From Halomonas sp. ML-15 (GTDB lineage Bacteria; Pseudomonadota; Gammaproteobacteria; Pseudomonadales; Halomonadaceae), in NCBI RefSeq assembly GCF_014779595.1, contig NZ_JACXZT010000019.1:248001-312000 (forward strand): DNA of 64,000 nucleotides, read 5' to 3'. Made by a program: the position numbers and the translations under genes. Positions 9,352-27,001 of the stretch are shown one piece after another. The notes beneath the pieces are model-generated. The model was not told the origin of the DNA. It saw only the letters and a program-made list of their open reading frames with translations, and ran no database searches. Within the stretch, counting starts at the first letter, position 1. Each line of letters begins with the position of its first letter.

Positions 9352-9424
9352 CCATACGGAACGATCCGCGGCGGGTGGCTTCCAATGGCCACATGCTCGA
9401 CTTAATGCTTTTTCGGAGCCCCTA

Positions 9425-9769: not shown

Positions 9770-9871
9770 CGGATTTGCCGCGGCGCCGACTGCGACTGAT
9801 AGAGACTGGCGAAAGTGCGGCGCCTGGCATAACGTTAAAGGGTCACCACGCCGACTCAACTGAGGTACTAC

Positions 9872-10240
9872 ATGCGCCATAATAATAAGATGCGCTACGC
9901 CGTCCCGCGCTCCGTCCTAGCCTCCCTGGCGGTCGGATTGCTGTTCGCAGCGCCCCTGGCAATGGCCAATGACTACCCCACTTCGACCCGCGTCGACTAT
10001 GTGCTCGGCTGCATGGCCGCCAACGGCCAGAACCATCTGGTGCTGCAGCAGTGTTCCTGCAGCATCGATGTGATTGCCGATCTGATTCCCTATGACGAGT
10101 ACGAATCCGTCGAGACGGTGATGCGCATGAACGACCAGCGCGGCGAACTCGGGGTGCTGTTCCGCACCGAGCGCGGCCTGCAGGATCAGGTACGCCAGTT
10201 CCGCAGCGCCCAGGCCGAAGCCGATCTGCGCTGCTTCTGA
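9872..10240 (+). CDS. Exported cysteine-containing protein of the XoxF cluster, function unknown
   Basis: A 122-residue protein with a signal peptide (residues 1-32, ending AMA before NDYPTS) and four cysteines in the mature part (Cys47, Cys61, Cys63 and Cys121, including QQCSCSID). Even-numbered cysteines in a periplasmic protein suggest disulfides or metal/haem-related chemistry. GAGG lies upstream of the ATG. It is followed 28 bases later by a cytochrome c gene and sits at the end of the xoxF/ABC cluster. From memory, small proteins of this kind accompany PQQ alcohol dehydrogenase clusters, but none has a role I can cite. No function is assigned. Confidence 0.72.
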   Translation: MRHNNKMRYAVPRSVLASLAVGLLFAAPLAMANDYPTSTRVDYVLGCMAANGQNHLVLQQCSCSIDVIADLIPYDEYESVETVMRMNDQRGELGVLFRTERGLQDQVRQFRSAQAEADLRCF

Positions 10241-10268
10241 ATCGCCGGTCTCCAGGAGCGCTGACGCG

Positions 10269-10655
10269 ATGCCCCTTTCCCGCTGGCCGGGCCCCAGGCT
10301 GCCGGTCGCTGTGCTACTGGCTGGCGCAGTACTGCCGGCGCTGGCCGATGATGTTCGCGAAGGCGAACGGGTCTTTCGCAACCACTGCTACGGCTGCCAT
10401 GCGCTACAGGAAGGCGTGCATCGCGCCGGTCCCAGTCTGTTCGAGGTGATCGGCCGCCCGGTCGGCGGCCTGGACGATTTCGACTACTCCACGGTGCTGG
10501 ACGCGGCGGACTTCCGCTGGGATGCCGAGACGCTGGATGCGTTTCTGGCCGACCCCGAGGCGCTGCTGCCGGGCAACCGCATGGTGCTGTGGGGGCTGGA
10601 CGACACCCCGCGCCGGGCGCTGATCCACTATCTAGAAGCGCAATCCAGCGATTGA
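10269..10655 (+). CDS. Small c-type cytochrome (class I)
   Basis: A 128-residue exported monohaem cytochrome. It has a signal peptide (about residues 1-26), the haem motif CYGCH (Cys40, Cys43, His44), the conserved GPSLFEVIGRPVG and a likely methionine axial ligand in PGNRMVLWG (about residue 102). It belongs with the preceding Cys-rich gene. Its position beside a PQQ dehydrogenase cluster suggests electron transfer from that system toward a terminal oxidase, in addition to XoxG. AGGAG lies about 12 bases before the ATG. Confidence 0.88.
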   Translation: MPLSRWPGPRLPVAVLLAGAVLPALADDVREGERVFRNHCYGCHALQEGVHRAGPSLFEVIGRPVGGLDDFDYSTVLDAADFRWDAETLDAFLADPEALLPGNRMVLWGLDDTPRRALIHYLEAQSSD

Positions 10656-10666
10656 TGCTCTTGGCC

Positions 10667-11470
10667 TCAGTCGCCGCCCCCGCCCTTGCGCGCCATCATG
10701 CCCCGCGCCGGATTGTAGCCGAGGATCGCCAGCGCCAGTAGCACCAGGGTGGTGGCCACCACGATCATCACCGCCTCAAGGTTGAGCTGCTCATAGAGCG
10801 CGAAGCGGATCATCTCCACGGCGTAGGTGAAGGGGTTGAGCGCGGCGATCTGATAGACCAGATAGCTGCCCTCGCGGATTCGCCACAGCGGGTAGAGCGC
10901 CGAAGAGAGAAAGAACATCGGGAAGATCACGAAGTTCATCACCCCGGCGAAGTTCTCCAGCTGCTTGACGAAGGTCGACAGCAGCATGCCCAGGGCGCCA
11001 ACCATAAAGCCGGTGACGATCAGCGCCGGCAGGATCCACAGGTAGCCCATCACCGGTGCCTGGATGCCGTAGAACCAGGCGATGGTCAGGAAGACGTAGA
11101 CCTGCACGATCGACACCATGGTCCCCGCCAGCAGCTTGCAGATCAGCAGATACCAGCGCGGGAAGGGGCTGACCAGCAGCACCCGCATGCTGCCCATCTC
11201 GCGGTCATAGACCATCGACAGCGAACTCTGCATGCCATTGAACAGCTGAATCATCCCCACCAGGCCGGGGATGATATAGACCTCATACAGGATGTAGGTC
11301 TTGTAGGGGTCGGTCATCGCCACGCCCAGCGCCATGCGAAAGCCGGCGGCGAACACGAACAGCCAGATCAGCGGCCGTACCAGCGCCGCCACGAAGCGCG
11401 TGCGCTGGTGCAGGAAGCGCAGCAGCTCGCGACCTACCACGCCGCGCAGGCAGTGCAGGTAGCGGTTCAT
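10667..11470 (-). CDS. pedC: ABC-2 type permease of the PQQ-alcohol-dehydrogenase-associated ABC system
   Basis: A 267-residue inner-membrane protein with about six hydrophobic segments and the ABC-2 family layout: a basic N-terminus, LIWLFVFAAGFRMALG, and the MRVLLVSPFPRWYLLICKLLAGT loop helix. Its ATG overlaps the stop of the ATPase gene (ATGA). The family is the PedC-type permease found next to PQQ-dependent alcohol dehydrogenases. ABC-2 permeases normally export, yet a periplasmic binding protein is encoded in the same operon, so transport direction and cargo are unresolved. Related systems in Pseudomonas (Ped) and Methylorubrum (Lut) have been linked to lanthanide handling. Confidence 0.88.
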   Translation of the reverse strand: MNRYLHCLRGVVGRELLRFLHQRTRFVAALVRPLIWLFVFAAGFRMALGVAMTDPYKTYILYEVYIIPGLVGMIQLFNGMQSSLSMVYDREMGSMRVLLVSPFPRWYLLICKLLAGTMVSIVQVYVFLTIAWFYGIQAPVMGYLWILPALIVTGFMVGALGMLLSTFVKQLENFAGVMNFVIFPMFFLSSALYPLWRIREGSYLVYQIAALNPFTYAVEMIRFALYEQLNLEAVMIVVATTLVLLALAILGYNPARGMMARKGGGGD

Positions 11471-12231
11471 ATGGTCACCTCGGCGGGACCCAGGGTCAGG
11501 GTGTCGAAGGCCTCACCGATGGAGGTGGCGCCGCTGGCGGCGAGCACCTCGCTGACGCTGCCGCTGGCGCGCACCCGCCCGGCATCGAGCACCACCACGC
11601 GATCCTCGGGGTAGACCTCGTCGATCAGGTGGGTGGCCCAAAGCACCGCCACGCCCTCCTCCACGCACAGCCGATGGACCCGCTCGACCAGGTCGCGGCG
11701 CGCGGCAATATCCAGCCCCACGGTGGGCTCGTCGAGCAGCAGCAGCCGCGGCCGATGCAGCAGGCCGCGGGCGATCTCCACCCGCCGCCGCTGGCCGCCG
11801 GAGAGCTGGCGCACCCGGGTCTTTAGCGACTCGCCCAGCCCGACCCGCTGCAGCTGCTCCTCGGCACGCCGACGCGCCTCACGTGGGCCCATGCCATGCA
11901 GGGCGGCGTGATAGGTGAGGTTCTGGCGTACCGTGAGATCGAGATCCAGGGTCGGCTGCTGGAAGACCACGCCCATCCGCGCGTGGGCCGCCACGGCATC
12001 CCGGCGCAGCTCATAGCCGCCGACGTGAATGCTGCCCACGCGGCGGTCATAGAGCCGCGTGATCAGCGAAAACAGGGTGGTCTTGCCGGCCCCGTTGGGA
12101 CCCAGCAAGACCGTGAACTGCCCCGCCTCGAGGCGCAAGCCGACCTCCTGCAGCACCGGCTTGCCGCTGTAGCTGAAGCTCAGCCCTTCCACCTCGAGCG
12201 CGGGGACCTCTGTGTTCTCGCCCAACGTCAT
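11467..12231 (-). CDS. ABC transporter ATP-binding protein of the PQQ-associated ABC system
   Basis: A 254-residue ATPase: Walker A GPNGAGKTT (residues 44-52), Q-loop VVFQQPTLD, signature LSGGQRRR (143-150), Walker B LLLLDEPTVGLD and H-loop ATHLIDE. The ATG at 12231 overlaps the stop of the beta-propeller gene, and a longer in-frame extension upstream only shadows that gene. It pairs with the downstream ABC-2 permease. The order binding protein, beta-propeller, ATPase, permease is the conserved layout of the PQQ-alcohol-dehydrogenase-linked ABC system. The cargo is unknown, with lanthanide or cofactor handling the leading ideas. Confidence 0.92.
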   Translation of the reverse strand: MTLGENTEVPALEVEGLSFSYSGKPVLQEVGLRLEAGQFTVLLGPNGAGKTTLFSLITRLYDRRVGSIHVGGYELRRDAVAAHARMGVVFQQPTLDLDLTVRQNLTYHAALHGMGPREARRRAEEQLQRVGLGESLKTRVRQLSGGQRRRVEIARGLLHRPRLLLLDEPTVGLDIAARRDLVERVHRLCVEEGVAVLWATHLIDEVYPEDRVVVLDAGRVRASGSVSEVLAASGATSIGEAFDTLTLGPAEVTI

Positions 12232-13232
12232 GGCTGGACGATTACCCCCCACGGGAAGCGCCCTACCGGGATCGACTGCAGCGCGGTGAGATTCTCGACG
12301 TCGATCACCGTGACGTCGCCGCTGACGCCATTGGTGGTATAGAGCCGCGTCTCGTCCTCGTTGAGCGCCAGATGCCAGACCCGCTGGCCGACCAAGATAT
12401 AGTCGAGCACCTCGTAGGTCTGCTGGTCGACTACCGCCACGCGGTTGGAGGGCCCCAGCGCCACGAAGCCGTAGCGGCCGTCGGAGGTGAGCTGGATGCC
12501 TACCGCCTGCACGGTTTCCCGCGGCACCCCGGGCACATCGAAGCGAATGGTGTGCTCGACGTCGAAGCTGTCGACCATATCCAGTATCGAGACGGTGGCG
12601 GCGATCTCCGCCGAGACCCACGCCTCGCGGCCGTCGTGGGTGAACTCGGCATGGCGCGGGCGCGCCCCCACCAGCCGGTGGTACACGGTCTCCATCAGCT
12701 CGGTGTCGATGATATGCGCCATATTGGAGGTCTCGGTGGTAGAGACCAGCCAACGGCCGTCGGGACTGATACCCAGCCCCTCCGGCTCGACCCCTACCGG
12801 GATTTCGGTGACCAGGGTGCGCCGTTCGTAGTCGAGCACCGAGACGATATTGTCGTCCTCGTTGGAGACGTAGATATAGGGTCGATTGGGGTCGACGCGA
12901 ATCACCTCGGGATCCTCGCCAGAGGCCTGGCTGCGCACTACCTGCAGCGTCTCCAGGTCGATCATGTCGATCGCCTCGTCGTCGCCCACGGCGACGAACA
13001 GCTCGCTGCCGTCGCTGCTGAAGGCCATCGAGCGTGGCCGACGGCCGACGTCGATGGTCTCGACCACCTCCAGGCTCGCGCCGTCGATCACCGAGATGGT
13101 GTTGTCCTTCTCATTGGAGACGAAAATGCGTTCGGCGCTGGCGGCCAGCGGGGTCAGGGCCAGGGCGCCCAGCGCCAGCCCGAGCAGCGTCGGCTTGAAC
13201 ATGGCGGCAGTCTCGCGGCTTAGAATTGGCAT
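12228..13232 (-). CDS. Exported YVTN-type beta-propeller protein of the PQQ-associated ABC system
   Basis: A 334-residue periplasmic protein built of seven or so beta-propeller repeats of the YVTN type, e.g. RIFVSNEKDNTISVID, YIYVSNEDDNIVSVLD and RLYTTNGVSGDVTVID. A signal peptide ends at AASA. Two starts are possible. The ATG at 13232 has a strong GGGGGA 6 bases upstream and overlaps the binding-protein gene by 13 bases. The ATG at 13202 gives a shorter, more standard signal peptide. I chose the first because of its ribosome-binding site. Homologues are known only by association with PQQ dehydrogenase ABC clusters. The protein may bind a metal or cofactor for the transporter, which is speculative. 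Confidence 0.88.
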   Translation of the reverse strand: MPILSRETAAMFKPTLLGLALGALALTPLAASAERIFVSNEKDNTISVIDGASLEVVETIDVGRRPRSMAFSSDGSELFVAVGDDEAIDMIDLETLQVVRSQASGEDPEVIRVDPNRPYIYVSNEDDNIVSVLDYERRTLVTEIPVGVEPEGLGISPDGRWLVSTTETSNMAHIIDTELMETVYHRLVGARPRHAEFTHDGREAWVSAEIAATVSILDMVDSFDVEHTIRFDVPGVPRETVQAVGIQLTSDGRYGFVALGPSNRVAVVDQQTYEVLDYILVGQRVWHLALNEDETRLYTTNGVSGDVTVIDVENLTALQSIPVGRFPWGVIVQP

Positions 13233-14449
13233 TGTGATTCCCCCTCGTCGACACCCATGGCATCCAGTGGCGTACGCGGATGCAGATAGCCCTCCTGGGG
13301 CGAGACCGAGGCCACCATGCGCGGCCCGCTGATCAGGATCGGCTGGCGCAGCTGATGGTTCCAGGTGCGGTAGCTGACCGGGAAGCCCAGATAGCCGGCC
13401 AGTTCGAACTCGTCGCTGAGCATATACTCGACCACGTCGTCGCGCTCCACCGAGCCGGTACGCGCGGCGGCCTCGCCCAGCGAGCGCACCGCCAGCCAGG
13501 CGCCGAAGTCCTGGGGCGTCATCCAGCGGTCGGCGATCCGCTCGAAGCGCCGCTGCAGCTGCACCGCCCCCCAGGATTCATGGGAGCGATGCCAGGCGGT
13601 GGCCATCAGCCCCTGGGTGCCGGCCACCGGCCGCGGCAGCCAGGTCTGATTGGGGAAGAACTCGCCGAAGTAGTCGGTCTCGTCGGAGATCACCAGCACG
13701 TCGTGCTCGGCGAACTCCTGGAGGAACACCGGGATCTCGCGCTGGATATCGTGGAAGCCCCCCTCGGAGCGGCGCGCCATGGCCTCGTAGGGCCACATCT
13801 CTTCGCTGACCACCTCATGGCCAAAGCGCTCGGCGGACTCGCGCAGGGCCTCGGCGAACAGCCGATCCTGATCGGTATTGCCGTAGACCAGCCCCCAGCG
13901 GTCCCACTGCTTGTAGCCGAGGAACTGCGACAGGGCATCGGCCAACATGCGTCGGCTGGGGACGCTGTGGAACAGCTGGGCGTGGCACGACTCGCTGCGC
14001 AGATGGTCGTCGCGGGCCGCGGCGTTGAACACCACCCGCTCGCCAAGCGCCTGATGCTCGAGCAGCGTACTCAGGTCATCGGCATTCAGCCCACTGATGA
14101 TCCAGTCGGCGCCCTGCTCGATCAGCTGCTCGAGGCCGGCGGACACGTCACCGCCGGGCTCGACCATGGCCTCGACGAGCACGAACTCCTGGCCAAGAAA
14201 CTGGCCGGTGGCGTTGTTGTCGTTGACCGCCAGACGCGCCCCCTGCACGCCATCGTCGTCGATCACCGGATCGAGCACCGAGAGCGGCTCGAGATCGTCG
14301 GGTCGCTCCATGCCCAGGTAGCCCAGGGTAATGGTGGCGACCTCGTCGTCCTGCGCCAGCGCGGGACTCGCCAGCGCCACCGCAGTGGCCAGCGTGCCCG
14401 CCACCAGCCAGCCCGTCAGCGGACGGACACCCACGTTACCAGCCCACAT
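13220..14449 (-). CDS. Periplasmic type-1 binding protein of the PQQ-associated ABC system
   Basis: A 409-residue exported protein with signal peptide ending PALAQ, followed by ITLGYLGMERPDD and two Rossmann-like lobes typical of Leu/Ile/Val-type (peripla_BP) receptors (for example DWIISGLNADDL and WGLVYGNTDQDR). The ATG at 14449 has GGGAG 5 bases upstream and is favoured over an in-frame GTG two codons earlier. In this conserved neighbourhood the receptor is coupled to an ABC-2 permease, which is unusual because such receptors normally serve importers of another permease class. The mature chain is rich in Asp and Glu, fitting either halophily or metal binding. Confidence 0.88.
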   Translation of the reverse strand: MWAGNVGVRPLTGWLVAGTLATAVALASPALAQDDEVATITLGYLGMERPDDLEPLSVLDPVIDDDGVQGARLAVNDNNATGQFLGQEFVLVEAMVEPGGDVSAGLEQLIEQGADWIISGLNADDLSTLLEHQALGERVVFNAAARDDHLRSESCHAQLFHSVPSRRMLADALSQFLGYKQWDRWGLVYGNTDQDRLFAEALRESAERFGHEVVSEEMWPYEAMARRSEGGFHDIQREIPVFLQEFAEHDVLVISDETDYFGEFFPNQTWLPRPVAGTQGLMATAWHRSHESWGAVQLQRRFERIADRWMTPQDFGAWLAVRSLGEAAARTGSVERDDVVEYMLSDEFELAGYLGFPVSYRTWNHQLRQPILISGPRMVASVSPQEGYLHPRTPLDAMGVDEGESQCQF

Positions 14450-14508
14450 ATGCACTCCCTAGCGGGGATCACCCGCGCCTATTGTCGTTGTTAGCGCCTC
14501 TTGGCGGC

Positions 14509-15159
14509 CTACATCCCGGCGTCGATGATGCGTACCATCTGGCCGAGCCGTTCCTCGAGCAGATAGGGCTGCTCGCACAGCGCCGGCAGGGACTGCTGGC
14601 GCGTCTGGAAAGTGCGCTGCTCCCAGAACAGCGCCTTGGAGAGCTCCTCCTCCTGGTGTGGGTCGATGTCATCCTCGGCGCGCAGCGCCTCGAGTTCGTC
14701 GACCATCTCGGCGACCTTCTCGAGCCGCGCGACCTGGGCCCGCGAGGCGCCCCGGATACGTTCGATGGTGCGGCTACGCTCGCGCTGAGTGAGCTCGAAG
14801 AGGCCCGAGAAGAGCAGCGTCAGGCGCTCCTCGCGTTCGGCGGGGTCGTCGTCGGCGAGACTCTCGACGAACTCGCGTACCCGCTGCATGGCGTCGTCGC
14901 TGCGGGTCTCCCGCGACATCGCATAGCGCACTACGCGCCCCACTTCCTGGTCGTCCCACCACGCCTCCTCGACCTCATCCAGCGGCGGGCCGGTCCAGAT
15001 AGCGCCCCATGCCAGCTCCGGCACCAGCCGCTGCACGCAGGGCCAGTCGGGGGGGCCAGTGGCGGCACGCTGGGCCTCGGCGTGGGGAGGTGACGACAGC
15101 GCCAGCAGCAGGCCCAGCGGCAGGCCCCACAGCAGGGCGGGGGTGCGGAAGGTTTTCAT
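14509..15159 (-). CDS. Exported helical protein of the XoxF cluster, function unknown
   Basis: A 216-residue protein with a signal peptide (residues 1-29, ending HAEA). The mature part is charged and predicted mostly helical (for example VREFVESLADDDPAEREERL and ERIRGASRAQVARLEKVAEM). There are two cysteines, Cys41 in PDWPCVQRLVPELAW and one near the C-terminus in LPALCEQPYLLEERLG, which could form a disulfide. Its ATG overlaps the xoxJ stop (ATGA), so it is translated with the methanol dehydrogenase accessory genes. It could be a chaperone or adaptor for the dehydrogenase. No recognised family, so no function is assigned. Confidence 0.75.
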   Translation of the reverse strand: MKTFRTPALLWGLPLGLLLALSSPPHAEAQRAATGPPDWPCVQRLVPELAWGAIWTGPPLDEVEEAWWDDQEVGRVVRYAMSRETRSDDAMQRVREFVESLADDDPAEREERLTLLFSGLFELTQRERSRTIERIRGASRAQVARLEKVAEMVDELEALRAEDDIDPHQEEELSKALFWEQRTFQTRQQSLPALCEQPYLLEERLGQMVRIIDAGM

Positions 15160-16007
15160 GAGGACGCCTCCCCATTGAACGTTGCCGGATCGAGCAGCAC
15201 GCCGCGGCGATCGAGCAGCGGCACCTGGTACTCGACCAGGATGGCGTTGATCTGGTCCTGATGGCGGTCGATGAAGTCGTTGATCCAGTCCTTCCACTGC
15301 GGCTCGCCGCGGCGGATCCCCATGGTGATGCGGAAGTCCAGGCGCACATCGCCGCCGTTTTCATGCAGCGGCAGCACCTTGAGGGGGGGATCGTGACGCG
15401 CGGCGAAGTAACCGGCCATCGGCCCCCAGATCACCGCGCCATCCAGGGTGCCGTTGGCCACGTCATCCACCGCGTCGCGCACCGGGGCACGCTCTCGGGT
15501 GTCGACCTGCAGCAGGTAGTTGCGCACCGTGGCGCCGCTGCGCCGCAGCGGCACGATGGGTGGCGTCTCGGCAATCACGCCGATATCGAGCCCCTCTAGC
15601 GCCGGATCGTCGAGGCGGGTGATCTCAGCCTCGAAGTCCGCCGGCACCACCAGCGAATAGACCGAGCGGTAGTACTCGTTGGTGTTCTGCAGGTGCTCGT
15701 AGCCCGCCACCACGCCGATCATCACGTCGCAGACGCGCAGCTCCAGGGTATTGCGCACGAAGCCCATGACCTGGGGTGCCCACACATAGCGCAGCGGCAC
15801 GTCCAGATCGTCGGCCATCAGCTCGGCGATGCGGTTCTCGAAGCCCTCGCCAGCGCTATTGGTAAAAGGCAGGTTGTTGCCGTCGGCGCAGACCCGCAGC
15901 TGGTCGCGCTCATACAGCTCGGGCAGGTCGGCGTGGGCCGAGCCGATGCCCTGGGTCAGCAGCCAGACGGCCGCCGTAAGACATGTCAGGGAACCGCATA
16001 ACCTCAT
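15156..16007 (-). CDS. xoxJ: XoxJ/MxaJ-like periplasmic protein for methanol dehydrogenase
   Basis: A 283-residue exported protein of the quinoprotein-dehydrogenase-associated binding-protein family. A signal peptide ends SAHA, then come LRVCADGNNLPFTNSAGEGFENRIAE (here split as LRVCADGNNLPFTN and GEGFENRIAELMADDL) and LRVCDVMIGVVAGYE. These are MxaJ/XoxJ signatures that differ from ordinary amino-acid receptors. XoxJ is thought to help activate XoxF in the periplasm. The ATG at 16007 begins the signal peptide, and upstream in-frame sequence has no coding character. It lies 64 bases after xoxG and its stop overlaps the next gene. Confidence 0.9.
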   Translation of the reverse strand: MRLCGSLTCLTAAVWLLTQGIGSAHADLPELYERDQLRVCADGNNLPFTNSAGEGFENRIAELMADDLDVPLRYVWAPQVMGFVRNTLELRVCDVMIGVVAGYEHLQNTNEYYRSVYSLVVPADFEAEITRLDDPALEGLDIGVIAETPPIVPLRRSGATVRNYLLQVDTRERAPVRDAVDDVANGTLDGAVIWGPMAGYFAARHDPPLKVLPLHENGGDVRLDFRITMGIRRGEPQWKDWINDFIDRHQDQINAILVEYQVPLLDRRGVLLDPATFNGEASS

Positions 16008-16071
16008 GACGCTCTCCGCTTGCCAAGGGGGAGGGGGATACCTATGGATGGCGGGCTCAGCGCCCGCTGCG

Positions 16072-16614
16072 TCATGACGCCTCGTCTTCCAGTTTCTCTT
16101 CGGCCTCCAGTGTCTCGTCGCTGATCTCCTCTTCGAGATGTTCGATGATCCGCGGCCGCCCCCGGCCGATATCGCCGGCCGCGCGGCCGCGCATGTAACT
16201 GTAGATATTCTCCAGGTTGCCGAGCACATAGGGGTCGTCGGCAAACGCTGGCATCACCTGGCCCGGCTGCACTTCTCGCCCGCCGGCAATGGTCCGGGCG
16301 AACTCGGCGAAATCACGCCGCTCCGAGGCGCGTACCAGATTGGGGGCAAACGAAGAGCCCAGCCCATCGGGGCCGTGGCAGGCCTGACAGGAGCGGGTGT
16401 AGGCGATATAGCCTTCGTAGGTGTCGGGGTCGACCTTGCCATCCTCGACCAGATACTCGCCGGCGGCGCTGGTATCGACCGCGTCGTCGTCCTTATCACT
16501 GTTGCTGCTGGCCACGGCCAGTGCGGACATGCTCAAGCCGGCAGCCATCAGGACGGCGACCAGCGAGGGTGTGGCAAAACGGGACGTCTGGCGTGACGTG
16601 AAGCGTCTAATCAT
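16072..16614 (-). CDS. xoxG: XoxG-like cytochrome c, electron acceptor of XoxF
   Basis: A 180-residue exported cytochrome c. A signal peptide ends near ALAVA, the haem site is CQACH (Cys76, Cys79, His80) followed by GPDGLGSSFAPNL, and a methionine ligand candidate is in GQVMPAFADDPYV. The N-terminal mature part (SNSDKDDDAVD) and the C-terminal tail (many Glu and Asp) are very acidic, as in halophile periplasmic proteins. XoxG takes electrons from the PQQ of XoxF and passes them to the respiratory chain. It lies downstream of xoxF, separated by a strong stem-loop, which fits lower expression than the dehydrogenase. Confidence 0.9.
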   Translation of the reverse strand: MIRRFTSRQTSRFATPSLVAVLMAAGLSMSALAVASSNSDKDDDAVDTSAAGEYLVEDGKVDPDTYEGYIAYTRSCQACHGPDGLGSSFAPNLVRASERRDFAEFARTIAGGREVQPGQVMPAFADDPYVLGNLENIYSYMRGRAAGDIGRGRPRIIEHLEEEISDETLEAEEKLEDEAS

Positions 16615-16729
16615 GTGCGTGCCCTTATATTCGAGCGCTGATGCGAGCCTCGTGGCGGCGCTCGTTATCTCGCCGGGCAGCGCCCGGCGCTGATTGTCAT
16701 GATGTTGCCGTCAGGAATTTGCGCTCATA

Positions 16730-16761
16730 AGGCGCCATGACGCCGCAGCGTCATGGCGCCT
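16730..16761 (-). promoter_or_regulatory. Stem-loop between xoxF and xoxG (attenuator or mRNA-stability element)
   Basis: A perfect 14-base inverted repeat (AGGCGCCATGACGC at 16730-16743 and GCGTCATGGCGCCT at 16748-16761) with a 4-base loop lies 7 bases after the xoxF stop. On the minus strand it is followed by TATGAGCG, with no real T tract. It is therefore better explained as a leaky terminator or 3'-end stabiliser than as a full terminator. Confidence 0.65.
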
Positions 16762-16768
16762 GTCCGAC

Positions 16769-18601
16769 TCAGGAGTCGGGCAGTTCGAACACGGTCAGCA
16801 CGCCGCCCAGTTCGGTATAGTCCGACAGGGCAGAGAACACGCCTACCGCACCGAGACCCTCCTCGGGATCCTCGAGCCCCGCCGCAAGACCGATGCCGGC
16901 CCAGCCACCGACCCCGGAGAGCACGGCGATATACTGCTTGCCCTCATGGCGGAAGGTGTTGACGTTGCCGATGATTCCGGACGGGGTCTTGAAGCGCCAC
17001 AGCTCCTCGCCGTTCTCGATGTCGACCGCCTTCACGTAGCCCTCGAGGGTGCCGTAGAAGGCCAGATCACCGGCGGTGGTCAGCGCGCCACTCCAGACCG
17101 CGAAGCGCTCGTCGACTTCCCACACCACTTCCCCGGCAACCGGGTCCCAGGCGATAAAGCTGCCCATGCGACCTTCCATGCCGCCGTTCTCCACCGGTGC
17201 CGGCATCATGGTCAGGGTCGCGCCCACATAGGGCTGGCCCGCCACGTAGTCGGTCTCGAAGGGCTCATAGTTCATGCAGATGCGGTTGATACCGGCATAC
17301 ATCAGCCCGGTTTCCGGCGAGAACGAACTCGGCTGCATGTTCTTGGCGCCCATCGCAGTGGGGCAGATATCGGTGGTATTGACGTCCACGCCCTGGGTGA
17401 AGGGGCTGTAGTCTTCGTCGAGTACCGGACGTCCGGTCTCCATATCGTAGTGAGTGGCCCAGTTGGTTTCCGGAGCGAATTTCTCGACGGTGATCAGTTC
17501 ACCGTTCTCACGATCCATCAGGAAACCGAAACCGGTACGGTCGATGATCGCCAGGCCTTTGCGGTTTTCACCGTCGACCTCGACGTCGATCAGCACGTTC
17601 TCGTTGACGCCGTCGTAATCCCACTCGTCGAACGGCACCTTCTGGTAGACCCACTTGGTCTCACCGGTGTTGGGGTCGCGGGCGAATACCGTGATGCCCC
17701 ACTTGTTATCCGCCGGCTCGCCGTCGATGGCGCGCTGGTCGGGGTTCCAGGTGCCCGGGTTACCGGTGCCGTAGTAGATCAGGTCGAGTTCGGGGTCGTA
17801 GGTTACCCAGCCCCAGGGCGCCCCGCCGCCACGCTCCCACTCGCCGTCGGGCCAGGTGGTCACGCCGAGATCGGCCTCGCCGATGGGTTCGCCCATCATC
17901 AGGGTGGTCTCGGGATCGATCAGCACCTCGGAGTCAGGCCCCTGGGAGTAGCCGCGCCAGGCCATCTCGCCGGTCTCGATGTCGTAGGCGGTGAGGTGGC
18001 CGCGGATGCCGTACTCGCCACCGCTGACGCCGACGATGACCTTGTCATGCACCACCAGCGGCGACATGGTCATGGTTTCGCCTTGGGTGTGGTCACCGTT
18101 GCTGACCTCCCATAGCACCTCGCCATCCTCGGCGTTGAGCGCCACCACGGTGTTGTCGGCCTGGTTGAGGAAGATCTTGCCGTCGGCGTAGGCCACGCCG
18201 CGGTTGACGGTATCGCAGCACATCACCGGGATGACACGGGAGTCCTGATCCGGCTCATAGGACCAGATCACCCGTCCATCTTCTTCCAGATCGAGGGCGA
18301 ATACCTTGTTGGGGAAAGGAGTGTGAATGTAGAGCCGCCCATCGCCGACATACAGCGGACCGCCCTCATGGCCGCGCAGCACGCCGGTAGAGAACTGCCA
18401 AGCGGGTCGCAGGTTATTGACGTTGTCGCGGTTGATATCGCTGAGTTTGCTGTAGCGGTGACCTTGGTAGTTACCGAGCTGGGTGGCCCATAGGTCGTCG
18501 TTTTCGAGTAATTCCATCAGGCTGTCATTGGCGTGGGTAGTCGCCGCTGTGACAGCCAGAAGTCCCGCGGCTGCGAGTGCGCAGCTCATCTTGAGATGCA
18601 T
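16769..18601 (-). CDS. xoxF: Lanthanide-dependent PQQ methanol dehydrogenase XoxF
   Basis: A 610-residue periplasmic quinoprotein, an eight-bladed beta-propeller that oxidises methanol and other primary alcohols to aldehydes with PQQ. A signal peptide ends THA before NDSLMELL. The vicinal disulfide pair is Cys128-Cys129 (VMCCDT). Metal ligands appear as Glu196 (GGEYGIRG) and Asn281 (GTGNPGTWNP). The catalytic Asp328 is followed two residues later by Asp330 in EWDYDGVNEN. The second aspartate marks lanthanide-dependent enzymes (calcium MxaF has Ala there). The ATG at 18601 has GGAG 8 bases upstream, and a 20-residue longer frame has no support. The genes for its cytochrome, XoxJ and PQQ synthesis surround it. 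Confidence 0.95.
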   Translation of the reverse strand: MHLKMSCALAAAGLLAVTAATTHANDSLMELLENDDLWATQLGNYQGHRYSKLSDINRDNVNNLRPAWQFSTGVLRGHEGGPLYVGDGRLYIHTPFPNKVFALDLEEDGRVIWSYEPDQDSRVIPVMCCDTVNRGVAYADGKIFLNQADNTVVALNAEDGEVLWEVSNGDHTQGETMTMSPLVVHDKVIVGVSGGEYGIRGHLTAYDIETGEMAWRGYSQGPDSEVLIDPETTLMMGEPIGEADLGVTTWPDGEWERGGGAPWGWVTYDPELDLIYYGTGNPGTWNPDQRAIDGEPADNKWGITVFARDPNTGETKWVYQKVPFDEWDYDGVNENVLIDVEVDGENRKGLAIIDRTGFGFLMDRENGELITVEKFAPETNWATHYDMETGRPVLDEDYSPFTQGVDVNTTDICPTAMGAKNMQPSSFSPETGLMYAGINRICMNYEPFETDYVAGQPYVGATLTMMPAPVENGGMEGRMGSFIAWDPVAGEVVWEVDERFAVWSGALTTAGDLAFYGTLEGYVKAVDIENGEELWRFKTPSGIIGNVNTFRHEGKQYIAVLSGVGGWAGIGLAAGLEDPEEGLGAVGVFSALSDYTELGGVLTVFELPDS

Positions 18602-18988
18602 GGCGTTGTCTCCTAGCACTGAAGGTGCATCCCCTCGCCCGGGACTGGGCCACGGATGCATCTTTCATTGTTATGGTTTTCCTAACAGCACACTGAAGGT
18701 CTAGCACAAGAATCCGCCATGCACCGGTCTTAAGCAGTGGGTTTTCGACTAACGAAATGGTCAAAAGACTTTTGCTGTGGCGGCATAATCGGCACGAAGT
18801 ATCCCGTCTCACCGAAAAATCGTCGTAAGGCCATGCTTTATAAGCAGTACCGGGATAGCACAACATCTGTTGAGCGAGCAGCGCGGGGCTTCTGACACTG
18901 GATGCGACTTAGGTAGCAAGGCGAGGAACCCACGACGTGCTTTACTGGTCACTGTAAGTGCCAACCCACCGTCGACAGGAGTGTTCCT
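18602..18988. promoter_or_regulatory. Divergent control region of xoxF and pqqA
   Basis: This 387-base stretch separates the xoxF operon (leftward) from pqqA (rightward) and holds no convincing gene. It must contain both promoters. I see an A/T-richer centre (about 18740-18850) with an 11-base palindrome GCTTTATAAGC at 18835-18845. No promoter pair is clear enough to name. The short frames inside have no ribosome-binding site or family resemblance. Confidence 0.6.
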
Positions 18989-19060
18989 ATGTGGACCAAA
19001 CCGACCTATCAGGATCTGCGTCTCGGCTTCGAAGTCACGCTCTACATCGCCAATCGCTGA
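18989..19060 (+). CDS. pqqA: PQQ precursor peptide PqqA
   Basis: A 23-residue peptide starting [20 protein letters not shown] and ending in Ala-Asn-Arg. The Glu15 and Tyr19 separated by three residues (EVTLY) are the two residues that PqqE cross-links and that become PQQ. AGGAG stands 7 bases before the ATG. The gene is the expected length for pqqA (22-24 residues), and the rest of the pqq operon follows on the same strand after a stem-loop. Confidence 0.96.
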
Positions 19061-19075
19061 TCATGGCCTACTGGT

Positions 19076-19108
19076 AAGACGCTCCGAATTTCGGGGCGTC
19101 TTGCTTTT
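19076..19108 (+). terminator. Stem-loop terminator/attenuator after pqqA
   Basis: An inverted repeat AAGACGCTCCG / CGGGGCGTCTT (one wobble) is followed by GCTTTT, 15 bases downstream of the pqqA stop. It looks rho-independent. As pqqB-F follow on the same strand with no other obvious promoter, it probably acts as a partial terminator that makes pqqA mRNA more abundant than the rest. Confidence 0.7.
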
Positions 19109-19213
19109 GGTGGGTATTAAACGCCGGCGTTTGATGATTATCTTATAAAGACTCATACAACAGCGCCCCCTTCGCAACACGGTGAAGGATGCGGTGATAC
19201 GCCAGGAGGTGGC

Positions 19214-20143
19214 ATGCAGATACTGGTACTCGGGGCGGCGGCGGGCGGCGGTTTCCCTCAGTGGAACTGCAACTGCCGAATGTGCCGTGGCGTGCGCGAT
19301 GGCAGCGTCCAGGCCACGCCACGTACCCAGTCGTCGATCGCCATCAGCAGCGACGGCGAAAGCTGGCTGCTGTGTAACGCTTCCCCCGATATTCGCGCCC
19401 AGCTAGCCGCCAATCCCGAGCTACACCCCAAGCGTATCCCCCGCGATAGCGGTATTTCCGGCGTGGTGCTGATGGACGCCCAGATCGATCACGCCACCGG
19501 CCTGCTGTCGCTGCGTGAAGGCTGCCCGTTCGAGGTGTGGTGCACGCCCAACGTGCACCAGGACCTGAGTACCGGCTTTCCGCTGTTTCGCATGCTCGAG
19601 CACTGGCAAGGCGGCCTGAACTGGCAGCGTATCGGCATCGACGACGGCCACTGGGAGGCCGAGTTCAAGGTGCCGGCCTGCCCCGGGTTGACCTTTACCG
19701 CGGTGGCCTTGACCAGCAACGCCCCGCCCTACTCGCCGCGCCGCGGGGCCCCGACACCCGGCGACAATATTGGCCTGATGGTCGAGGACACCAGCCGTGG
19801 CGCGCGACTCTTCTATGCCCCGGGGCTGGGCGAACTCGACGACCGCACCCGCGGCTACCTGCAGCAGGCCGACTGCATCATGGTCGACGGCACCCTGTGG
19901 CGGGACGACGAGCTGGTGCAGGCCGGGGTCGGCCGGGCCACCGGTCGCGATATGGGCCATCTGGCGCTGTCCGGCGAGCATGGCCTGCTCAGCGAACTCG
20001 ACGCCCTGCCCGAAACCACGCGGCGCGTGCTGATCCATATCAACAACACCAACCCGATCCTCGACGAGCGCTCCGAGCAGCGCGCCACGCTCACCGAGCG
20101 GGGAATCGAGGTGGCCTTCGACGGCATGCGCCTGGAGGTGTGA
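19214..20143 (+). CDS. pqqB: PQQ biosynthesis protein PqqB
   Basis: A 309-residue metallo-beta-lactamase-fold protein required for PQQ synthesis, thought to hydroxylate the tyrosine of the processed precursor. Family signatures include [19 protein letters not shown] at the N-terminus, with the cysteine-rich CNCRMC, and [19 protein letters not shown] and [11 protein letters not shown] later. The start ATG has a full AGGAGGT ribosome-binding site. The length matches the family (about 300-310). It lies 153 bases after pqqA and 62 before pqqC. Confidence 0.96.
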
Positions 20144-20205
20144 ACCCACGCTCGCCAACCGCGTCACACATAACAACGCCTCAAGCGCTTGCCAGGGAGC
20201 CTTAC

Positions 20206-20988
20206 ATGACCGCAGCCATCGCATCACCGCTAAGCGACACCTCGGGAGAGGCCATGAGCCCGGACGCCTTTCGTCGGGCGCTGCTGGCCAAGGGGGACTA
20301 CTACCATATCCACCACCCCTATCAGGTCGACATGGCCGCTGGGCGCGCCACCCCCGAACAGCTGCGCGGCTGGGTCGCCAACCGCTTCTACTACCAGATC
20401 AATATCCCCCAGAAGGACGCCGCACTGCTGGCCAACTGCCCGGATGCCGCCACCCGGCGGCGCTGGATACAGCGGCTGCTCGATCACGACGGCCACGATG
20501 ACGACGGCGGCGGTATCGAGGCCTGGCTGACCCTCGGTGAGGCGGTCGGCCTCTCCCGTGACGAGCTGTGGTCCCAGGAGCACGTGCTGCCCGGGGTGCG
20601 CTTCGCGGTGGACGCCTATGTCAACTTCGTGCGCCGCGCCGACTGGCGCGAGGCGGCGATCTCGTCGCTCACCGAACTGTTTGCGCCGGAGGCCCACAAG
20701 AGCCGCCTGGACACCTGGCCAACCCACTATCCGTGGATCGATGAGGCCGGCTATGGCTACTTTCGCAAGCGCCTCAAGGAGGCGCGCCGCGACGTCGACC
20801 ACGGTCTCGAGGTGGCCCTCGCCGTGTGCACCACCCGCGCCGCCCAGGAGCGCGCGCTGGAGATCCTGCAGTTCAAGCTCGACGTACTGTGGAGCATGCT
20901 CGACGCCATGACCCTGGCCTACCAGCTCGGCCGGCCGCCCTATCACACCGTCACCGACCAGCGCGTCTACCACCGGGGGCTAGCATGA
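20206..20988 (+). CDS. pqqC: Pyrroloquinoline-quinone synthase PqqC
   Basis: A 260-residue enzyme that closes the rings and oxidises the precursor to PQQ in the last step, without a metal cofactor. Visible family residues include [37 protein letters not shown] and [16 protein letters not shown]. The ATG at 20206 with GGGAG upstream was chosen, since the longer frame upstream shadows pqqB. The stop overlaps the pqqD start (ATGA). Confidence 0.96.
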
Positions 20989-21272
20989 ACCAGGAGGTCA
21001 TCGGCACTCGCGTTTACCGCCTGCGTCCCGGCTGGCGACTACAGTGGGAGGAGGCACAGCAGCGCCACGTGCTGCTGTATCCCGAGGGCATGGTCAAACT
21101 CAACGAGAGCGCCGGCGCGATTCTTGGCGAGCTCGACGGCCAGCGCGATGTCGTTACGCTGATCGAACGGCTTCAGGCCAAGTTTCCCGAGGCCCCCGAC
21201 GGGGCCATCGCCGAGGATGTCCACGCCTTTCTCGTCGACGCCCAACAACAGGGCTGGATCCAGCATGACTGA
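20985..21272 (+). CDS. pqqD: PQQ biosynthesis peptide chaperone PqqD
   Basis: A 95-residue peptide-binding protein of the RiPP recognition element class. PqqD presents PqqA to the radical SAM enzyme PqqE. Family features seen are [24 protein letters not shown], given here as [14 protein letters not shown] and [20 protein letters not shown]. It overlaps pqqC at its start and pqqE at its end by 8 bases. Confidence 0.94.
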
Positions 21273-22416
21273 TCACACCGATACCGCCACCGCCAACGGT
21301 GAAACCGGCGCGCCGCTGTGGCTGCTCGCCGAGCTCACCTACCGCTGCCCGCTGCAGTGCTCCTACTGCTCGAATCCCCTCGACTTCGCCGCGGTCAAGC
21401 AGGAGCTGACGACCGCGGAGTGGATCGACGTGCTGACCCAGGCCCGCGCCATGGGCGCGGTGCAACTGGGCTTCTCCGGCGGCGAGCCGCTGGTGCGCAA
21501 GGACCTCGAAACGCTGGTCGCCGAAGCCCGTCGGCTGGGCTTCTATACCAACCTGATCACCTCGGCGCTGGGCCTCGATGAAGCGCGCATTCACGCCCTG
21601 CGCGACGCCGGCCTCGACCATATCCAGATCAGCCTGCAGGCCTCCGACCCCGACGTTGCCGCCGCGGTGGCCGGATCAACCAAGGCCCACGCCAAGAAGC
21701 TGGCCATGGCCCGGGCGGTCAAGGATGCCGGCTATCCGATGGTGCTCAACGTGGTGCTGCATCGTCACAATATCGACCAGTTGGATACCATCATCGCGCT
21801 ATGCGATGACCTCGGCGCCGACGCCGTGGAGCTCGCCAACTGCCAGCTCTACGGCTGGGCCCACCTGAATCGCGCCGGACTGCTGCCGAGCCAGGCCCAG
21901 CTCGAGGCCGCCGAGGCCACCACCAACCGCTGGCGTCAGCGCCTGGCCGAGCGCGGCCGCGACATGCGCCTGCTGTTCGTGGTGCCCGACTACTATGCCG
22001 ACCGCCCCAAGGCCTGCATGGGCGGCTGGGGCTCGATCTTCATGACCGTGGCTCCCGACGGCGCGGTGCTGCCCTGTCACAGCGCCCGCATGCTGCCGAT
22101 GGACTTTCCCAACGCCCGCGAGCGACCGCTGCAGGAGATCTGGTACGACAGCGCTGCCTTCAACCGCTATCGCGGCGATGACTGGATGCAGGAGCCCTGC
22201 CGCAGCTGCGACGAGCGCCACAAGGATGTCGGCGGCTGCCGCTGCCAGGCCTATATGCTCACCGGCGACCCGGCGGCCACCGACCCGGTCTGCGACCTGT
22301 CGCCGGATCACCACCTGATCGAGGCGGCACGCCGCGAGGCCGCCGACGACAGCCGCTCGGCGCAGGCGCTGACGCTACGCAACGCCCGGGAGTCGCAGGT
22401 CTTCTGTCGCACCTAG
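21265..22416 (+). CDS. pqqE: PqqA peptide cyclase PqqE (radical SAM)
   Basis: A 383-residue radical SAM/SPASM enzyme that forms the Glu-Tyr carbon-carbon bond in PqqA. The SAM cluster is bound by Cys28, Cys32 and Cys35 (CPLQCSYC), the glycine-rich SAM site is [12 protein letters not shown], and the C-terminal auxiliary-cluster cysteines lie in [10 protein letters not shown] and [21 protein letters not shown]. The ATG at 21265 is internal to the end of pqqD and is the normal family start. The length is typical. Confidence 0.96.
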
Positions 22417-22429
22417 GCGAGGACGCAGC

Positions 22430-24877
22430 ATGCGCGCGAACCACAGCGACCTGAGCCAGGGCCTGCCGCCGGGCGGCCGCTGTCGCTCGCGGCGGCTCGC
22501 CAATGGGTTGTGGCTGGTCGCCGCAGAAGTGCCCGACGCCCACCTGACGCGCCTGGCCGGTGCCATCGATCTCGGCTATCTGGATGAGCCCGCCGTGCGC
22601 CCGGGGCTCACCCATCTCCTCGAGCACGCCCTGTTTCTCGGCAGCCGCCGCTGGCCTGAGGTCGATGCCCTGAGCCGCTGGGTCGGCGAGCAGGGCGGAC
22701 GCTACAACGCCTACACCGGCGACACCGCCACTGACGTTCATCTGCAGCTACCGCCCGCTGCCGCCGAGGCGGGTCTCGAACGGCTCTGCGACCTGCTGGC
22801 CAGTCCCTGCTTTGACCCGGCACTGATCGAGCACGAAGTCGGGGTACTTGACGCCGAGTTCCGTGCCCGGCTCGCCGACCCCGAACTGCACCGACTCGCC
22901 GCCCTCGGCCAGCTGTGTCGCCCGGGGCACCCCGCTCAGCAGTGCCACGCCGGCCATGCCACCAGCCTGGCCGGCAGCGGTGACGCACTGGCCGCCGAGC
23001 TGCGCGCGCTGCATCGCCACTACCGGCCCGCGCGCATGGCGCTGGCCATGCTCGGCCCGCAGCCACTGGAGCAGCAGCTCGACCTGCTGGCGCACCATGC
23101 CGCCCTGCTGGCACCCGTCAGCGTGTCGGCTGAGCCTGCAGCGTCGCGGACCTGGCGCTGGGCCGAGCCCGGCGGCGTCGTCTGGCAACTGCCCGACGCA
23201 GCACAGGACTCGAACCACTGCGTGGAGCTGCTGTGGCCGCTGCCCACTCCCCTGGCCAACGCCTATCGGCCCTATCTCGACGGCGTGGCGGCACGCCTCG
23301 CCGATGGCGCCCTGGCCGAGGCACTCAGCCGGGTGATGCCACTCACCGATATGCAGGTCACGCCTTGGCCTGCCGGTGCCGGCCCGGCACTCTCGCTGCG
23401 GCTCGCGACGACGGCTACACCGCCGCCGCTCTCCGATCTGCTGGCGATTCTCGTCCCGGCCCTGAACGAGGCCCGACGCCGGCCCCTGGCGGCACCGGCC
23501 GGCCTCGCCAGCGCTGAACGGGAAACCCTCGACCGCTGGCCAAGGCATCACGCCAGGCGCCTCGCCGGACAGCCCCCCGGCGGGACGGCGCCGGCGCTGG
23601 GCGACGGCCAGGAGGCACTGGCCGCCTGGCTGGCACCCGACCAGTGCCGGCTGCTATGGCAGCAGCCCAGCGCGGCATCAAGCTGCCACGACTGGCGCCG
23701 CCTGGCGGAGACCGGCACCCCCGTAAAGCGGGTAGCGCTGCCGCAACCGCGCGCCTCATTCACGCTGCCGCCCCGTCAACCCGGGCCAATGGAGGGCGAG
23801 CTTGCGGCCTCTGCCGGCGCCCAGCGGGTGCGTGGGCACCCCGCCTGGCCGGGGTCCGAGGCTATCAGCCACTGCGCCCTGGGCTGGCCGGCCGTCCACG
23901 ACAAGGCGCGCCTCGGACGCTGGCGCCAGCGCTGCCTGGCCCTTGGCCAGACGGCCACAGCAGAGGGCGCCGCCCTGCAGCTCGGCGGCGATCGCCTCGG
24001 CGACTGGCTGCTCGCTATCGGCACGCCGGACCAGGTACTTGCCCTGACCGAGCAGGCCCTGATGGCCTGGCCGGCGACCCCCGCTGCCGCCCAGGCCCCG
24101 GCCACCAATGGACTGGTGGCCCAGCGCCTGCTCGACCTGCTGGAAACCGCGCCGCCGCCCTCCGACCCCCCTGCGGCGAAGGCGCAAGCCGCCCTGTGCT
24201 GGTCAAGCGATCGCCTCGGCGACGCCGAACTGGCGCCGCTGCTGGGCCGCTGCCCGGTGCCATCGGCCGCGGCCCAGGCGGCGACGCCTCCGTCAGCGAC
24301 GCTATGGCTCGCCCCCCAGGCCGCGGACCATGCCGTGATGCTCGAGGTGATGGGCGCCGACGCCAGCCCGCGCAGCCGCTGGCTGCTGCGCTTGCTCGGC
24401 CAGTGCCACGACGCCGCCTTTCAGCAGGCGCTACGCCAGCGCCAGGGGCTCGGCTACGCCGCCGCGGTGCGCTACCGCGAGGCGGCGGGCTGGCCGCGGC
24501 TCGGCTATGTGGTGCAGTCGCCACATGCCGACATCGACGCCCTGCGCGGCGCCATCGAGGCCTTTATCGCCGCCGAGACCAGGACGCTATCGCACCTCTC
24601 TTCCGCGGCGCTGGCCACCCAGCGCCGCGGGCTGCTGGCACGCCATGCGCCGCCGGAGACCTACCCCGATGCGCTCAAGCGGGTGTGGCAGCGACTCCGC
24701 CAGGCACCGCCCTCGACCCTACCGTCGGCCTTGCCCGAGCGCTGGCTATGCCCCTGGCAGGAGGATGCGGAAAAGCTCGCGCACCTGACCCCCCAGGACC
24801 TGCAAGACAGCGCCCGCGCCCTGGCCGCGCAGGTGCTGCCGCAGCGCTGGTGGTATCACCGCCCGGCCGGCCACTAA
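22430..24877 (+). CDS. pqqF: PqqF-type zinc metallopeptidase (M16 family)
   Basis: An 815-residue M16 (insulysin-like) peptidase. The inverted zinc motif HLLEH (His62, Glu65, His66) is intact, and a second conserved stretch GRYNAYTGDTATDVHL follows. PqqF is thought to cut the cross-linked PqqA to release the modified dipeptide, usually with PqqG. No pqqG follows here, so this long protein may act alone or with another protease. The C-terminal half is Ala/Pro-rich and diverged, as usual in the inactive M16 half. It starts 13 bases after pqqE. Confidence 0.93.
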   Translation: MRANHSDLSQGLPPGGRCRSRRLANGLWLVAAEVPDAHLTRLAGAIDLGYLDEPAVRPGLTHLLEHALFLGSRRWPEVDALSRWVGEQGGRYNAYTGDTATDVHLQLPPAAAEAGLERLCDLLASPCFDPALIEHEVGVLDAEFRARLADPELHRLAALGQLCRPGHPAQQCHAGHATSLAGSGDALAAELRALHRHYRPARMALAMLGPQPLEQQLDLLAHHAALLAPVSVSAEPAASRTWRWAEPGGVVWQLPDAAQDSNHCVELLWPLPTPLANAYRPYLDGVAARLADGALAEALSRVMPLTDMQVTPWPAGAGPALSLRLATTATPPPLSDLLAILVPALNEARRRPLAAPAGLASAERETLDRWPRHHARRLAGQPPGGTAPALGDGQEALAAWLAPDQCRLLWQQPSAASSCHDWRRLAETGTPVKRVALPQPRASFTLPPRQPGPMEGELAASAGAQRVRGHPAWPGSEAISHCALGWPAVHDKARLGRWRQRCLALGQTATAEGAALQLGGDRLGDWLLAIGTPDQVLALTEQALMAWPATPAAAQAPATNGLVAQRLLDLLETAPPPSDPPAAKAQAALCWSSDRLGDAELAPLLGRCPVPSAAAQAATPPSATLWLAPQAADHAVMLEVMGADASPRSRWLLRLLGQCHDAAFQQALRQRQGLGYAAAVRYREAAGWPRLGYVVQSPHADIDALRGAIEAFIAAETRTLSHLSSAALATQRRGLLARHAPPETYPDALKRVWQRLRQAPPSTLPSALPERWLCPWQEDAEKLAHLTPQDLQDSARALAAQVLPQRWWYHRPAGH

Positions 24878-25043
24878 TCCCGAGTGGCAAGGCTGACGCC
24901 GCGGTACTGTTGCCGCCAGGCAATATTGTCTCTGGGCAACGCTGTTATGCCACTGCCGCATAATCCCCCTTCCGAAGCTCACCTAGACTGTCATCAGCGC
25001 TTACCGGTCCACGACCGGTCCTTGCGGGTCGTAAACAGCACCC

Positions 25044-26208
<1,165 letters not shown>

Positions 26209-26256
26209 GAGAGGACCACGAGGTAACAACAACAAGACCAAGAGAGGTTAACTGCC

Positions 26257-26988: not shown

Positions 26989-27001
26989 CCCTGCCTGGCA
27001 C

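Follow-up and report, generated by a model that had tools for sequence, protein, structure and literature searches.

Gene content of the island

The stretch of DNA analysed here (the window, 64,000 nucleotides, positions 248,001 to 312,000 of contig NZ_JACXZT010000019.1 of Halomonas sp. ML-15) carries, at 9872-26988, an island of genes on both strands that surrounds xoxF, the gene of a methanol dehydrogenase of the pyrroloquinoline quinone (PQQ) type. We describe the island and, in particular, one of its genes, u122, whose occurrence was found to follow that of the XoxF5 enzymes. A minus-strand run consists of xoxF (18601-16769), xoxG, xoxJ and u216, followed by four genes of an ATP-binding cassette (ABC) system ending at 10667. 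Divergent to xoxF, the plus strand codes for pqqA, pqqB, pqqC, pqqD, pqqE, a pqqF-like gene, frmA and gfa. At the opposite end of the island from the pqq run lie u122 and a small cytochrome c gene, both on the plus strand (Table 1).

An earlier note on this DNA had described a lanthanide methanol dehydrogenase and PQQ module containing, besides XoxF, XoxG, XoxJ and pqqABCDEF, two exported proteins of unknown kind and a second cytochrome c. The latter three correspond to u122, u216 and the class I cytochrome c (10269-10655). Beyond that description, the then unnamed genes at 10667-14455 were recognized as a Ped/Lut ABC system, and frmA and gfa push the end of the cluster to about 26988. An Rfam scan of 9000-27000 gave no match.

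Table 1. Features of the XoxF island (window coordinates)
Feature	Position	Strand	Evidence
u122, exported all-helical protein, four invariant cysteines, XoxF5-linked, without known family	9872..10240	+	searches, alignment, model, co-occurrence
small class I cytochrome c, exported	10269..10655	+	NF043008 E 7.6e-14, under cut-off; PDB c-type cytochromes such as c552
ABC permease, PedC/LutF type	10667..11470	-	TIGR03861 419 vs cut-off 241.35 bits
ABC ATPase, PedB/LutE type	11467..12231	-	TIGR03864 335.4 vs cut-off 302.25 bits
YVTN beta-propeller protein, PedA2/LutB type	12228..13232	-	TIGR03866 441.1 vs cut-off 287.3 bits
substrate-binding protein, PedA1/LutA type	13220..14455	-	TIGR03863 433.6 vs cut-off 413.6 bits
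u216, exported helical protein, probable LutG by position	14509..15159	-	no Pfam/NCBIfam match at E 0.001; XoxF-linked occurrence
xoxJ, periplasmic binding protein	15156..16010	-	PDB 6onp E 5e-59; TIGR03871 above cut-off
xoxG, c-type cytochrome, electron acceptor	16072..16614	-	PDB 6onq E 1.7e-23; TIGR03874 E 3.9e-27, under cut-off
xoxF, predicted lanthanide-type PQQ methanol dehydrogenase, XoxF5 group, 610 aa	16769..18601	-	PDB 6oc5/6dam; TIGR03075 684 bits vs cut-off 480; ligands; tree
pqqA precursor peptide (Glu15-x3-Tyr19)	18990..19061	+	identified by eye from sequence
pqqB	19214..20143	+	TIGR02108 above cut-off
pqqC	20206..20988	+	TIGR02111 above cut-off
pqqD, start uncertain	20979..21272	+	TIGR03859 and NF002535 above cut-off
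pqqE radical SAM protein (longest ORF; true start maybe further in)	21217..22416	+	TIGR02109 above cut-off
pqqF-like M16 peptidase	22430..24877	+	TIGR02110 E 7e-48, under cut-off
frmA, S-(hydroxymethyl)glutathione dehydrogenase	25099..26208	+	TIGR02818 above cut-off
gfa, S-(hydroxymethyl)glutathione synthase	26257..26988	+	TIGR02820 above cut-off

XoxF, its partners and the ABC system

The open reading frame (ORF) of xoxF extends from 18661 to 16769, the likely start at 18601 giving a protein of 610 amino acids. Its best matches in the PDB were the XoxF structures 6oc5 (E 5e-237) and 6dam. Identity was 58% both to Methylorubrum extorquens XoxF (6oc5) and to M. buryatense XoxF5 (6dam), 61% to Grimontia marina XoxF, 52% to XoxF2 (4mae) and 48% to MxaF (1lrw). 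In the alignment the metal ligands are Glu196, Asn281, Asp328 and Asp330; the lanthanide-type motif given in the earlier note (Asp328-Tyr329-Asp330) stands in the numbering of the 610-residue protein. The second lanthanide-binding Asp was present in 85 of the 86 aligned sequences, the MxaF reference alone having Ala, and the vicinal cysteines (Cys128-Cys129 in the window protein) were conserved in all 86. MxaFI thus shares with the window enzyme the overall sequence family, PQQ and the vicinal cysteines, but MxaF differs from it in the second Asp. PedH of Pseudomonas putida is an ethanol-type quinoprotein, whereas the window XoxF matched 6oc5 far better than 6zcv, 'Quinoprotein ethanol dehydrogenase' (E 3.3e-103).

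In a quick tree with Shimodaira-Hasegawa approximate likelihood ratio support and no bootstrap, the window XoxF shared one starred group with the XoxF of M. extorquens, the XoxF5 of M. buryatense, a Phyllobacterium protein named XoxF5 in its record and the XoxF of Grimontia marina, set against XoxF2 and MxaF, both on long branches. That the references exclude XoxF1, XoxF3 and XoxF4 lessens the weight of this grouping. In a review table (PMC11845868) M. extorquens XoxF1 is listed as XoxF5, and the XoxF5 of Grimontia marina CECT 8713 as measured with La-Nd. On the residues and the tree, the island XoxF groups with the lanthanide-dependent XoxF5 enzymes, a prediction from sequence.

XoxG and XoxJ, which the earlier note had placed beside XoxF, have the PDB relatives 6onq ('Cytochrome c XoxG') and 6onp, respectively. 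The earlier note had seen neither MxaF nor MxaI; no MxaF-like second enzyme was seen in the strain's own genome, MxaI itself not being searched for. The XoxF search of that genome gave three matches, and the only one of them among the matches listed (to E 4.6e-13, 6 of the 13 first-look candidates scored) was XoxF itself; in genomes other than this one, homologues of 46-49% identity reach E 2e-151 or better. The genome has 13 PQQ_2 matches, i.e. further PQQ-propeller ORFs. When eight of its PQQ-propeller loci were compared with XoxF by tblastn, a full match was obtained at xoxF only, with short 30% matches in three.

The pqqABCDEF set of the earlier note was recovered with evidence of different kinds. 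The genes pqqB, pqqC, pqqD and pqqE each scored above the NCBIfam cut-offs. pqqA, an ORF of 23 amino acids (18990-19058), was read by eye; so short a peptide matched no family. The pqqF match stayed under its cut-off (163.9 bits versus 320). Of the whole run, the gene of this pqqF-like peptidase changes fastest, with 38-49% identity to halomonad relatives outside the group of 97% XoxF identity, the remaining pqq genes being at about 62-93% in the same comparison.

All four genes at 10667-14455 were placed by NCBIfam, above cut-off, in an ABC system of PQQ-dependent alcohol dehydrogenases: the permease PedC, an ATPase, a beta-propeller protein and a substrate-binding protein. By name and by model it is the same four-gene system that accompanies PedH in P. 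putida, where the counterparts pedC, pedB, pedA2 and pedA1 are described as a lanthanide transporter (PMC12997753) and PedA1A2BC as required for growth at low lanthanide (PMC6839425; PMC12997753). In M. extorquens, deletion mutants of lutA, B, E, F and G are reported to show little or no growth on methanol plus La (PMC7391723). The four genes are therefore a probable lanthanide importer, as judged by homology.

u216 gave no Pfam or NCBIfam match at E 0.001. Its model consists for the most part of a single long helical hairpin (mean predicted local distance difference test score, pLDDT, 89.7), for which Foldseek returned nothing at E 0.001 or better, the top-ranked entries being long-helix proteins such as BAR domains. 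In Phyllobacterium (locus L109) and in three loci of family f51 (L127, L129, L130) the genes run from the binding protein through the beta-propeller, LutC-like, ATPase and permease genes to u216. This fits the published order lutA-B-C-D-E-F-G with u216 occupying the place of LutG; the window differs in that u216 precedes the binding-protein gene rather than trailing the permease gene. From this position, and without comparison to the LutG sequence, u216 is probably LutG. Neither u122 nor u216 could be assigned as LanD/LutD (PDB 9C8X), which was unlisted to E 10 in the PDB profile searches, its presence there being unchecked. The LutC-like protein of L109 was likewise rejected as LanD, since it matched nothing in the PDB up to E 1.

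By homology the island thus encodes XoxF5 with XoxG and XoxJ (its cytochrome and its loading/assembly factor, respectively), PQQ biosynthesis, a Ped/Lut ABC system and the glutathione-linked oxidation of formaldehyde. Islands of this kind are already known, and the new element is u122 as an XoxF5-linked family. The closest described system is the 28.5-kb XoxF/glutathione/lut (lanthanide uptake)/Calvin-cycle/PQQ island of Sinorhizobium meliloti pSymB (PMC12628762). It shares with the window XoxF, XoxG, XoxJ, the four ABC genes, frmA, gfa and pqqBCDE; it differs in gene order and in having additional CXXCW, SoxYZ-like, Zn-hydrolase and LutC-like genes and the Calvin cycle. In the window, unlike in S. 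meliloti, u216 lies within the xoxFGJ-lut run, and u122 forms a pair with the cytochrome c gene. M. extorquens AM1 resembles the window in XoxF1, XoxG, XoxJ, pqq genes near xoxF and the LutA, B, E, F and G functions, but is described with a separate lut cluster containing LutC, LutD/LanD and the TonB receptor LutH, with lanmodulin and with another formaldehyde route (PMC7391723).

Co-occurrence of u122 with XoxF5

u122 is an exported protein of 122 amino acids. Residues T37, R40, C47, M48, C61, C63, D66, G91, E92, C121 and F122 are invariant in 38 aligned members. The window protein had no Pfam or NCBIfam match at E 0.001, and with Pfam at E up to 1 the 38 rows matched seven families, each with 1-2 members (best E 0.032). 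The AlphaFold2 model, built on a shallow alignment, is all-helical (mean pLDDT 87.9) and found no known fold with Foldseek at E 0.001 or better; the best hit of a second fold search (Z 4.6, root-mean-square deviation 6.4 A, 69 residues) may for a helical bundle be due to chance. In the plasmid records examined u122 is annotated 'hypothetical protein'. No description of it was found in the literature searched, which mostly excluded subscription journals and is no proof of absence from print. tblastn located both proteins in the same region of pSymB of S. meliloti 1021 (u122 at 185076-185345, plus strand; u216 at 187601-188122, minus strand). A figure legend of the S. meliloti paper mentions genes with homologues but without known role, so u122 may be drawn there unlabelled (PMC12628762).

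The distribution of u122 was determined in three samples, which share a few genomes. XoxF (61% identity or more) was present in 33 of 201 sampled genomes of the strain's family (identified as Halomonadaceae from named relatives), in 7 of 24 genera, and u122 was found in all 33 and in none of the other 168. Among 398 Pseudomonadota genomes, 35 had a XoxF match of 52% identity or more; u122 (E below 1e-20) occurred in all 35 and in 1 of the other 363. In this single outlier (G468) a XoxF5 gene is cut by the contig end near u122. In family f51, where XoxF was defined by E 1e-200 or better to M. extorquens XoxF, u122 was present in 31/31 XoxF genomes and in 1/120 others (G623). Five genomes with only 44-48% XoxF/MxaF-type homologues (G420, G453, G480, G554, G589) had no u122. 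In a plasmid collection, counted separately, 126 records matched u122 and 144 matched XoxF at E 1e-150, the latter including homologues of 47-50%. u216 behaved similarly: it was found in 32 of the 33 XoxF genomes of the Halomonadaceae sample and in 0 of the 168 others, and in 13 of 13 f51 genomes tried (31 f51 genomes have XoxF5). The sole miss among the 33 was G121, whose XoxF is only 61% identical. This genome also carries a 49% homologue (C7:155184, C22:16623) and has u122; its XoxF is possibly a separate acquisition.

The spacing of the two genes was examined in the best 80 of 246 XoxF relatives, taken as named loci. In 61 of the 80, u122 lies 33 to 9562 bp from xoxF. For 18 of the 19 loci without a nearby u122 the genome was searched, and 16 of the 18 have u122 elsewhere. 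In three genomes u122 is far from every listed XoxF5-type gene of the same contig (about 334 kb in G292, 815 kb in G384 and 527 kb in G628); G292 carries another XoxF5-type gene on a different contig. The distance between u122 and the XoxF5 genes in some genomes argues for a functional tie and not for joint inheritance only. u122 and u216 might instead be passengers, carried along in the island without contributing to XoxF function, and within the Halomonadaceae sample both do travel in the same block as xoxF. Yet u122 is kept at the above distances, adjoins the more distant 61% XoxF in G121 and is present in two copies with two xoxF genes in G737, and we consider the passenger explanation improbable. 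A mirror-tree comparison of u122 with XoxF (r 0.84, 62 rows, 0/2000 permutations) was not used as evidence because shared descent alone would give such a correlation.

Several observations weigh against a dedicated role of u122. Block inheritance of the island could explain the co-occurrence within the family. u122 was not found in 2 of the 18 XoxF5 genomes checked, both of them metagenome-assembled genomes (MAGs), nor within 27 kb of a Methylocystis plasmid XoxF (65% identity to Phyllobacterium XoxF5), the chromosome being unsearched. Weak matches to u122 (E 1e-5 to 4e-4) came from four genomes of genus g27 that lack XoxF. The surroundings of two of these four showed no neighbour from the system beyond weak ABC-ATPase matches; the weak matches were treated as chance and kept out of the 1e-20 tally. 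G623 keeps u122 with no XoxF5 in 19.5 kb (L125 9680 and downstream) or at E 1e-200 genome-wide. As for the island as a whole, it counts against the present reading that the halomonad flanks examined showed none of the SoxYZ-like carrier, Zn-metallohydrolase and CXXCW protein that neighbour XoxF5 elsewhere.

The surroundings of u122 in G623 contain a SoxYZ-like carrier, a Zn-metallohydrolase, an ABC system and a cytochrome c. In five Halomonadaceae loci (L010, L020, L021, L038, L041) u122 adjoins an ABC system of binding protein, permease and ATPase, which also occurs near XoxF5 in Phyllobacterium; the nearest relatives (L009, L042, L060) did not show it.

We read u122 as an accessory factor dedicated to XoxF5: the association itself is observed, and the function is deduced from secretion, cysteines and co-occurrence. 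In its full form the proposal is that u122 founds an unnamed family of obligate, dedicated periplasmic partners of XoxF5, represented in Alpha-, Beta- and Gammaproteobacteria as well as in at least one Myxococcota MAG. Such a partner would be required to make or keep lanthanide-PQQ-XoxF5 active (e.g. by folding, disulfide formation or cofactor loading) and would be as diagnostic of XoxF5 as the enzyme itself. To this full form we give an even chance.

Proposed working and occurrence in Halomonadaceae

The island very probably constitutes a self-contained module for the XoxF5-dependent oxidation of methanol (short alcohols), as predicted from its gene content. PQQ would be made by pqqABCDEF and exported, and the ABC system would carry Ln3+ from the periplasm to the cytoplasm, with u216, in the LutG position, as a periplasmic helper of the importer. 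XoxJ would help to load apo-XoxF with PQQ and a light lanthanide. XoxF would then oxidize methanol in the periplasm, and the electrons would pass to XoxG, possibly to the small cytochrome c, and on to a terminal oxidase. u122 may serve as a four-cysteine periplasmic helper specific to XoxF5, most likely in folding, disulfide or cofactor maturation, or in partner contact. Formaldehyde would be converted to formate by Gfa, FrmA and FrmB, and formate to CO2 and NADH by formate dehydrogenase. Of these genes, frmA and then gfa follow directly downstream of pqqF, whereas frmB (C8:341653) and formate dehydrogenase (C8:363922) lie elsewhere in the genome, all four above cut-off. Since all of them are encoded, the route from methanol to CO2 is complete on paper.

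XoxF might serve mainly for other alcohols (ethanol, longer alcohols, ethylene glycol) or for formaldehyde, methanol being incidental and the glutathione genes serving general formaldehyde detoxification. XoxF enzymes differ in substrate range, long-chain alcohols being the reported preference of the one from Ideonella sakaiensis (PMC11166783), and a second frmA copy, 97% identical, adjoins frmB elsewhere in the genome. Against this, the XoxF, lut, pqq and glutathione genes are grouped as in S. meliloti, of which strain 2011 is described as growing on methanol only with light lanthanides (PMC12628762). Such a main use for other substrates is possible, though not likely.

As for the source of methanol, the earlier note had proposed that the strain lives on aromatics and that methanol released from methoxylated lignin units is an energy source. 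Genes of aromatic catabolism were indeed present: the same window codes for benC, benD, benE, catechol 1,2-dioxygenase, muconate cycloisomerase, 4-hydroxybenzoate 3-monooxygenase and coniferyl-alcohol dehydrogenase. These genes, which also speak for lignin methanol, start more than 5 kb past gfa, outside the 10-kb flanks compared among relatives. Their block (32674-55136) includes what looks like a coniferyl/ferulate branch and further contains benE-type transporters, an aldehyde dehydrogenase, an acyl-CoA synthetase and an enoyl-CoA hydratase. The release of methanol, however, found no support. Bacterial aryl-O-demethylases either release formaldehyde (VanAB, GcoAB) or transfer the methyl group to tetrahydrofolate (LigM, DesA), and we know of none that yields methanol. 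Lignin methanol as an energy source therefore deserves hardly any credence. The frmA and gfa genes beside the pqq run would fit formaldehyde from methanol as well as from aryl-O-demethylation.

Among the best 80 of 246 relatives, the nearest XoxF proteins belong to Halomonas, Franzmannia and Billgrantia species, the closest named ones (97%) being those of Halomonas salipaludis, Franzmannia pantelleriensis and Halomonas socia. The halophilic host of the earlier note is thus upheld: XoxF and its PQQ supply reside in a relative of the Halomonadaceae, with 97% XoxF matches in named halomonads. Relatives of 75-85% were found in Aquamicrobium and in MAGs placed in other families. Together with the patchy spread in the family, this suggests that the island XoxF was spread by horizontal transfer.

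How apo-XoxF is turned into the lanthanide-PQQ holoenzyme is an open question, for which the u122 family offers a concrete new gene to study. A homologue is present in S. meliloti, in which lanthanide-dependent methanol growth has already been measured (PMC12628762). For the Halomonadaceae, on which the literature searched listed little about lanthanides, the results indicate that about a sixth of the sampled genomes (33/201) hold a predicted lanthanide-dependent pathway of alcohol oxidation, complete as a module and equipped with a probable importer of its own.

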